Virus record (IMG/VR): IMGVR_UViG_3300007162_000032
Location: 1 to 20,699 of that record
Strand: one strand, 5' to 3'
DNA: 20,699 bases
DNA from: a virus
How positions within the stretch are numbered: the stretch's first letter is position 1; each line of letters opens with the position of its first letter. The notes beneath the pieces are model-generated. The model was not told the DNA's origin. It saw only the letters and a program-made list of their open reading frames with translations, and did no database searches. Below are positions 7,726 to 16,733 of this stretch, piece by piece. The position numbers and the translations under genes are program-made.

Positions 7726-7800
7726 ATTCCCGTAGCTCAGTTGGATTAGAGCAAGTGCCTTCTAAGCACTAGGTCGTAGGTTCGAATCCTATCGGGAATG
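7726..7800 (+). tRNA. tRNA-Arg(TCT)
   Basis: Full cloverleaf: acceptor ATTCCCG/CGGGAAT, D stem GCTC/GAGC, anticodon stem AGTGC/GCACT with loop CTTCTAA (anticodon TCT, reads AGA), T arm GTAGG-TTCGAAT-CCTAT. Discriminator G; no CCA encoded. AGA is the main arginine codon of the late genes here. Confidence 0.95.
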
Positions 7801-14715: not shown

Positions 14716-15339
14716 TTAGTTCCCTAAAACCCTCCAATGCGGAGGGTTTTTTATTGAAGAAAAAAAGTTTTCCAAATCCGTATTAAATCCTGGATTTATT
14801 TTTATTGGTTCATCTTCAAGTAAAGATACTTGGGTAGATGGTGTAATTGATCCGACTTGAGCAGGGATTTCATTTGCTTTTTTAGCATCATTATATGCTT
14901 TAGCAACTTCTCCCTCTAATTGCTGACGTTGAATATCTGTTAAATTTGGTATTTGATCTATCTGAGTATTTAAAGCCTCAAGTTCATCGTTCGTAGTTAG
15001 ATCTTCAGTGGTTTCTCCTTCAAGACTCATCATTTCGTATTCTGGAGGAGTATACCCCAATTCTCTGTTAAATTGTTCTGATAAAGGAGGAGTGGAAAAA
15101 TCAACAGGATCAAATTTAAATGGATCTTCTTTTTCAAGATCTTCTGGTAAAACTTCAGATGGAAACATTTCTTCAAAATTATCAGCTGGTTGAAGATTTA
15201 AATCTAAAGAATTATCTCCTTGCAACATTCTTGAATAATTCTCAAAAGACATTTGAGGATTGCCAAATTCGCTTCTTAGCAATTCTGTATCCCTAAGATC
15301 TACTTTTGGGGTATCAATGAATATTTCTGTGTCTATCAT
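14716..15339 (-). CDS. Acidic hypothetical protein, last gene of the gp4-gp26 operon
   Basis: 207 residues, strongly acidic and Pro/Leu-rich, probably largely disordered (LPEDLEKEDPFKFDPVDF and similar), with one helical stretch near 120-155 (IQRQQLEGEVAKAYNDAKKA). Not recognised. Its start overlaps the end of the -1 frame behind gp26 by 26 bases, and the upstream ribosome site is only a weak AG-rich stretch. The C-terminus (NPPHWRVLGN) is encoded inside the terminator hairpin shared with gp32. Position after gp26 suggests a tail-assembly or scaffold-like role, by context only. Confidence 0.75.
   Translation of the reverse strand: MIDTEIFIDTPKVDLRDTELLRSEFGNPQMSFENYSRMLQGDNSLDLNLQPADNFEEMFPSEVLPEDLEKEDPFKFDPVDFSTPPLSEQFNRELGYTPPEYEMMSLEGETTEDLTTNDELEALNTQIDQIPNLTDIQRQQLEGEVAKAYNDAKKANEIPAQVGSITPSTQVSLLEDEPIKINPGFNTDLENFFSSIKNPPHWRVLGN
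14726..14752. terminator. Terminator after gp32, shared with the convergent gene
   Basis: Perfect 10-bp stem AAAACCCTCC/GGAGGGTTTT (14726-14735 with 14741-14750), loop AATGC. On the plus strand it ends in a T-rich tail. On the minus strand it has four Ts and forms the last codons of the gene ending at 14716, so it can act on both strands. Confidence 0.85.
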
Positions 15340-15510
15340 TCTTTATCTTTCTTTGCTCTTCTTCCATCTTTTCTTTATGCTGATTAAAATATATTTCTCT
15401 TTCCCAGGGAAAACAATTTTCTAAATCATTTAAAGTAAAAATATTATTTGATATTAAAAAATATGATATCCTATAATAAACAATTAAATTAATATGATTT
15501 AGACATAAGT
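15314..15510 (-). CDS. -1 frameshift extension of gp26 (no own start codon)
   Basis: A 65-codon frame, -1 relative to gp26, running from the slippery site to TGA at 15316-15314 (its first codon borrows the last T of the heptamer at 15511). It encodes YLCLNHINLIVYYRISYFL, then FTLNDLENCFPWEREIYF and a charged helix. The middle looks like a real conserved protein (LxDLEN-x-FPWERE-x-Y), not a shadow. Between its opening stop (TAG, inside gp26) and this motif there is no ATG, GTG or TTG; the only ATG is in the last quarter. The likely product is gp26 residues 1-227 fused to these 65 (about 292 in all). A rare ATT start is the alternative. Confidence 0.65.
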
Positions 15511-16191
15511 AAAAAAATTCAGTACGCCATCCAATTTCATTGTTCTATTTTTGTCATCTGATGTTTTATATTCTACCACTGCTTGTGCTTTGGGTAGATT
15601 TGTCACAAATTTCTTAATTTCTTCAAATTCTTTAACAGTAAAAGAATCAAAAATTGACTTTAATTCTTCTTCGTTTATATCCATAAAATCATAAACTGCG
15701 TCATCCTTGTATATTCTATGAATACACGCCTTTGCAATATGCATAGAATCAAAAGATCCCTTTATGGATAAAAGTTTTTCCACCGTAGGTTCTTTAAACA
15801 AAATTTTAAATGTTTCGTCAAAGATAATTTCTTTTTCTGAATTTTTTCTATCGACGGTGAGCTTAGACAAATCTAAACTTGTTTTTATTTTTTCTCCAGT
15901 TTCTGGGCAAGTAAAATTTGTTTTTACTATTTCACCTACTGATTTTGATCTCAAAATACAAAAAAGATATTCTAAATCTTGCAGCGTTATACCGTCTGGA
16001 TCAATATCTGGAAAGCAACTTGTAAGTAGACTGTGAATATTCTTTACTATTAAAGAAGTGTCCTTTTCTTCTTTTATAAGCAAAAGATTTTTTTCATCTG
16101 ATACAAGAAATGGTCTAAAAGATATTTCTTTGCCAGTGCTTGGTTGAATTGTTTTATACGTTGGAAAATTTCTTTTAAAGTCTTTAATCAT
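15499..16191 (-). CDS. 26: gp26-like baseplate hub / tail assembly protein
   Basis: 230 residues (T4 gp26: 208). Matches the T4 baseplate (gp26) family in its opening PTYKTIQPSTGKEISFRPFL, followed by VSDEKNLLLIKEE, an all-helical body and a conserved FTCPETGEKIKTSLDL segment (about 105-120). In T4 gp26 is a minor hub component needed for central-hub assembly. ATGA overlap couples it to the tube-like gene upstream. Its 3' end carries the slippery heptamer and an in-phase -1 extension, recalling tail-assembly chaperones of lambda-type phages. Identification rests on remembered family features, not a search. Confidence 0.78.
   Translation of the reverse strand: MIKDFKRNFPTYKTIQPSTGKEISFRPFLVSDEKNLLLIKEEKDTSLIVKNIHSLLTSCFPDIDPDGITLQDLEYLFCILRSKSVGEIVKTNFTCPETGEKIKTSLDLSKLTVDRKNSEKEIIFDETFKILFKEPTVEKLLSIKGSFDSMHIAKACIHRIYKDDAVYDFMDINEEELKSIFDSFTVKEFEEIKKFVTNLPKAQAVVEYKTSDDKNRTMKLDGVLNFFTYV
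15511..15517 (-). other. Predicted -1 ribosomal slippery site, T TTT TTT
   Basis: Seven T on the minus strand in gp26 frame AAT TTT TTT ACT TAT GTC TAA. Both P- and A-site tRNA-Phe can re-pair after a one-base slip. The gp26 stop comes three sense codons later. Downstream sequence is AT-rich with only a weak GATAT/ATATC hairpin, so a structural stimulator is not obvious. Confidence 0.65.
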
Positions 16192-16733
16192 GATACACCA
16201 TAATTTCTAAATATAAATCCTACATCAAAAGTTAAAAATTTATCTGAAAATTCTGCGCTCATCTCAATTGGATATATTTTTACTGGATAAGCTTCCGAAA
16301 AAGTAAATGTTGCTTTGGTTCCGCCATTCATATCAAGGCACTCCACAACAACTAAGCCTGGTCTTGCATAGCTATTGTAAGGTCTTGCAAACGATGGTCC
16401 ATAATATTGGGGAAGGCTTCCATCATTTACAAGGGTATTCATCCAATTTTCTATTTTTTTATAAGTATTCCAATCCTGTTCCACGGGAAATGTTATTAAA
16501 AGATTTGCTTCTTTTCCTGGACCATAGTTTTGATTCATTGGTATATTTCTACCATTGCCAGGACCTGACATGAAATCGGATACCGTATCAATTTGTCTTC
16601 CACCGAATGTTACTTTTTGTGCTGGTATCGTGTTTATACCATCTGGAGTATCCACCGTTACATTGAATCGGTTGGTTCTTTGTATGCCACCAGCTTGATT
16701 GATTACTTGTTTTATGTAAGAAATTGAGTTCAT
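16188..16733 (-). CDS. Tail-tube-fold protein (gp54 or gp19 type)
   Basis: 181 residues. The N-terminus ISYIKQVINQAGGIQRTNRF matches the helical lead-in of T4 tube proteins (sAFxxGGxxRxNxF). The middle ITFPVEQDWNTYKKIENWMN and the end (EAYPVKIYPIEMSAEFSDKF followed by TFDVGFIFRNY) match the tube-fold pattern of gp19 and of the gp54 tube initiator, where a final ITTFDVTFAYR strand is characteristic. Location between gp4 and gp26, beside gp48 and gp53, favours the tube initiator gp54; the main tube gene gp19 normally sits beside sheath and portal. ATGA overlaps join it to both neighbours. Confidence 0.7.
   Translation of the reverse strand: MNSISYIKQVINQAGGIQRTNRFNVTVDTPDGINTIPAQKVTFGGRQIDTVSDFMSGPGNGRNIPMNQNYGPGKEANLLITFPVEQDWNTYKKIENWMNTLVNDGSLPQYYGPSFARPYNSYARPGLVVVECLDMNGGTKATFTFSEAYPVKIYPIEMSAEFSDKFLTFDVGFIFRNYGVS

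Follow-up and report, generated by a model that had tools for sequence, protein, structure and literature searches.

Does the gp26-like gene of this T4-like phage end in a programmed −1 frameshift, and what would the longer product be? The question arises on the minus strand of a 20,699-nt viral sequence (IMG/VR record IMGVR_UViG_3300007162_000032, referred to here as the window), where the gp26 frame closes with AAT TTT TTT ACT TAT GTC TAA (stop at 15501-15499). The features discussed are:

16188..16733, minus strand: upstream tail tube-like protein (PHROG 45, E 1.3e-15)
15499..16191, minus strand: gp26-like putative short tail assembly chaperone (TAC-N), 230 aa (PF12322, PHROG 150, predicted fold)
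15511..15517, minus strand: slippery heptamer T TTT TTT, 16 nt ahead of the gp26 stop, in −1 slip phase
15314..15511, minus strand: −1 extension, gp51-like C-terminal domain (TAC-C) (PHROG 634, dN/dS)
14716..15339, minus strand: next gene, low-complexity acidic protein of 207 aa, overlapping the end of the extension; no family

The gp26 gene, its −1 frame and its neighbours

The gp26 product matched Pfam PF12322 (E 3.4e-48; 164.7 bits against a curated cut-off of 24.5 bits) and PHROG 150 (E 3.7e-48). A structure model built from a 50-sequence alignment (pLDDT 89.7) found its best solved matches in 3FGX (Z 7.8) and 2OB9 (Z 6.4), the latter being the HK97 tail assembly chaperone (HK97 gp13); these scores are middling, and the next row stood at Z 4.3. 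Both structures have been described as tail assembly chaperones (PMC9603447), and the model supports a resemblance of the predicted gp26 fold to known members of this group.

The T7 run at 15517-15511 sits in X XXY YYZ phase relative to the gp26 frame, and the canonical −1 heptamer that the sequence-only reading had placed at the 3' end of gp26 was verified on the minus strand in both sequence and phase. Because the called genes of the window hold 54 in-phase slippery heptamers in 6147 codons, the motif is not significant on its own; it carries no weight in isolation and was dropped as independent evidence.

The −1 frame is open between the stops at 15547-15545 and 15316-15314. After the slip it runs for 65 codons to the TGA at 15316-15314, giving a fusion of 292 residues, and this frame stayed open in 12 of 20,000 sequences obtained by dinucleotide shuffling of the 76 codons. 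The extension matched PHROG 634 (E 1.7e-14), whose name, baseplate hub assembly catalyst, is that of T4 gp51; a Pfam search with the extension alone returned no match. The PHROG match and the conservation at all 159 non-Tevenvirinae loci described below place this signal beyond chance. Together with the dN/dS values, they also bear out the claim that the 65 codons read like a conserved protein. The claim that no ATG, GTG or TTG precedes the conserved part was likewise correct, the first such codon lying 134 nt past the gp26 stop, beyond the conserved WERE core. When the fusion was searched by tblastn against annotated phages, 653 records matched, 540 of them with at least 80% coverage, and in many cyanophages the match fell on two separately annotated pieces, a gp26 and a gp51.

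Next to gp26, no tape measure turned up in the window, which is a fragment, and inspection of the 78 kb relative G001 by eye revealed none. The 207-aa gene after the extension had no Pfam or PHROG family and is not a recognised tape measure; gp32 lies convergent beyond it, an order repeated in G001. In phiN3, the gene two downstream of the chaperone is long and weakly matches tape measure families. The order chaperone, small gene, long gene (PHROG 27688) was observed in L013 (4870-6992) and L011 (6881-9447). Elsewhere in the window, positions 7732-7793 are similar to the tRNA-Arg of Pasteurella phages.

Conservation and selection at the gp26 end

Thirteen loci formed the initial comparison (window-like contigs, Kyanoviridae, Emdodecavirus, a KVP40-type phage, Pootjesviridae and others), and all contained an in-phase T TTT TTN. 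Further loci were collected through conserved gp26 motifs or, in eight cases, through the extension, and the heptamer was never used as a query. In this comparison of gp26 3' ends across T4-like phages, which the sequence-only reading had proposed, every one of the 159 distinct non-Tevenvirinae loci kept the in-phase T TTT TTN, at −10 from the stop in 131 and in the form TTTTTTC in 123. The −1 frame was kept as well: counting the slip codons, the extension was 56-71 codons long in each of the 154 loci with the full stretch, and residues were conserved from the slip onward. Without exception among 115 representatives, the first Phe codon of the site was TTT, against 70% TTT at the other positions in gp26, and its upstream neighbour ended in T; the naive odds of these patterns are ~3e-18 and ~1e-25, respectively, with related sequences treated as independent. 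In two loci, L110 and L111, the gp26 frame continues 31-34 nt beyond the heptamer to its stop, longer than at other loci.

Relatives without the heptamer had been named as a sign against frameshifting. None occurred among the 159 non-Tevenvirinae loci, but the heptamer was absent from the gp26 end in all four Tevenvirinae-type loci examined, and T4, Aeromonas phage 25 and Erwinia phage Cronus have none. T4 gp26 and T4 gp51 both match PF12322, T4 gp51 additionally matches PHROG 634, and T4 gp51 joins a gp26-homologous part and the C-terminal domain in one frame as a single protein. The two are separate, divergent genes in T4 and Aeromonas phage 25. In these phages and Cronus, two homologous genes, the short gp26 and the long gp51, stand in for the shift.

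A dN/dS check on the −1 frame had also been suggested. Ratios were 0.04-0.09 in the closest informative pairs, in which the locus L001, identical to the window at gp26 and the extension, was compared with L003 or L005. Low values also held in the first 50 codons of the extension, where no start codon occurs. Purifying selection acts on the −1 frame.

Probable frameshifting, its alternatives and candidate stimulators

On this sequence evidence, gp26 and its −1 frame very probably encode a TAC-N/TAC-NC tail assembly chaperone pair of the lambda G/GT type, made by −1 frameshifting. We favour this reading because the heptamer is conserved, the −1 frame is under selection, the extension is homologous to gp51, the predicted gp26 fold is chaperone-like and T4 replaces the arrangement with two genes. 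The retention of heptamer and −1 frame in relatives, with purifying selection, also supports the earlier proposal that a frameshift is how the −1 frame is read. Most ribosomes would terminate at the TAA and release the 230-residue short form. Some would slip one base back on T TTT TTT, a site that lets both Phe tRNAs re-pair with UUU, and would read the −1 frame into a 292-residue fusion with a gp51-like end. Both the occurrence of slippage and its rate are what we infer here, and the short and long forms would together coat the tape measure protein and hand it over.

It is improbable that the gp51-like frame is instead translated alone, through re-initiation or a non-canonical start past the gp26 stop, with no fusion being made. 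Several relatives do have an ATG overlapping or just past the gp26 stop, and in many an ATG lies ~5 codons past the slip, so that separate initiation is possible in those loci; gp51 is annotated as a separate gene in databases, and T4 gene 26 has an annotated internal product, 26'. However, the conserved core of the window is not preceded by any ATG, GTG or TTG, and 37 of the 154 full-length loci have none ahead of codon 20. A normal downstream ATG, which the sequence-only reading had considered unfavourable to a shift, is found soon after the slip in many relatives but is lacking in these 37. Separate translation would also leave the invariant heptamer without a reason; the residues directly after the slip are conserved, and the same two parts form one in-frame protein in T4 gp51. 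Transcriptional slippage, in which slipping of RNA polymerase at the T7 run would give mRNAs in either frame, is highly unlikely, since the long runs of the window (T7) and Melnitz (T8, L011) are set against only T6 followed by C in most loci (TTTTTTC in 123/159) and a codon phase that matches the expectation for tandem tRNA slippage.

Candidate stimulators of a −1 frameshift were found in the relatives. The codons GAG (p 2e-18) and GGG (p 5e-7; relatedness ignored in both values) are over-used 9-10 nt upstream of the heptamer, where they form a Shine-Dalgarno-like (SD-like) element. Predicted RNA structure peaks ~5 nt downstream of the heptamer (mean z −1.64, single-sequence predictions), whereas most background values lie from 0 to −0.5; RNAalifold found no consensus structure in this region across 115 loci. 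Over 110 related loci, the predicted RNA energy falls again ~200 nt past the heptamer (mean z −1.25), close to where the extension ends and the next gene begins. The window has neither a predicted structure downstream of the heptamer nor a strong SD-like element upstream, a difference in candidate stimulators from many relatives. One speculative and rather doubtful explanation is that the window lineage shifts on a bare U7, with T4-like groups reaching one conserved chaperone ratio through different stimulators.

Comparison with known tail assembly chaperones

A 2022 study in Virology by Vladimirov, Gautam and Davidson is said to have found frameshifting conserved in several T4-like groups, with T4 using genes 26 and 51. 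Passages citing this study state that some T4-like phages possess a short copy together with a long, fused one (PMC10885494), which the T4 gp26/gp51 pattern fits, and that poly-T frameshift signals occur in TAC-N genes of T4-like phages (PMC12846349). As these citing papers present it, −1 frameshift chaperones in T4-like phages were already reported in 2022 (Vladimirov, Gautam and Davidson, Virology), and the sequence-only reading's suggestion of a new instance for a T4-like gp26 does not stand. The SD-like element and the downstream structure of the relatives are possible additions to that report.

Judged from their sequences, many uncultivated T4-like phages that do not belong to the T4 group probably rely on −1 frameshifting for their tail chaperones. 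Such a shift would explain why annotations either omit gp51 or show it as a tiny gene of its own, and the results support the view that T4 gp26 and gp51, which have long gone by the name of hub assembly proteins, act as hub/tape-measure chaperones.

The chaperones of Vladimirov et al. (2022), as described in the citing passages, involve the same gp26/gp51 homologues and poly-T signals in TAC-N genes; the window lineage differs in having no close named phage in the collection searched, and the window lacks the upstream and downstream elements shown by many relatives. Both T4 proteins are homologous to the window gp26 and T4 gp51 bears the C-terminal domain, whereas T4 encodes them in two divergent genes and lacks the heptamer at the end of its gp26. 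The heptamer in the window is T TTT TTT and the gene that follows was not recognised as a tape measure, in which the locus differs from lambda gpG/gpGT; it shares with lambda a short form and a putative −1 frameshifted long form, with the shift near the end of the short gene, and its predicted chaperone fold resembles HK97 gp13.
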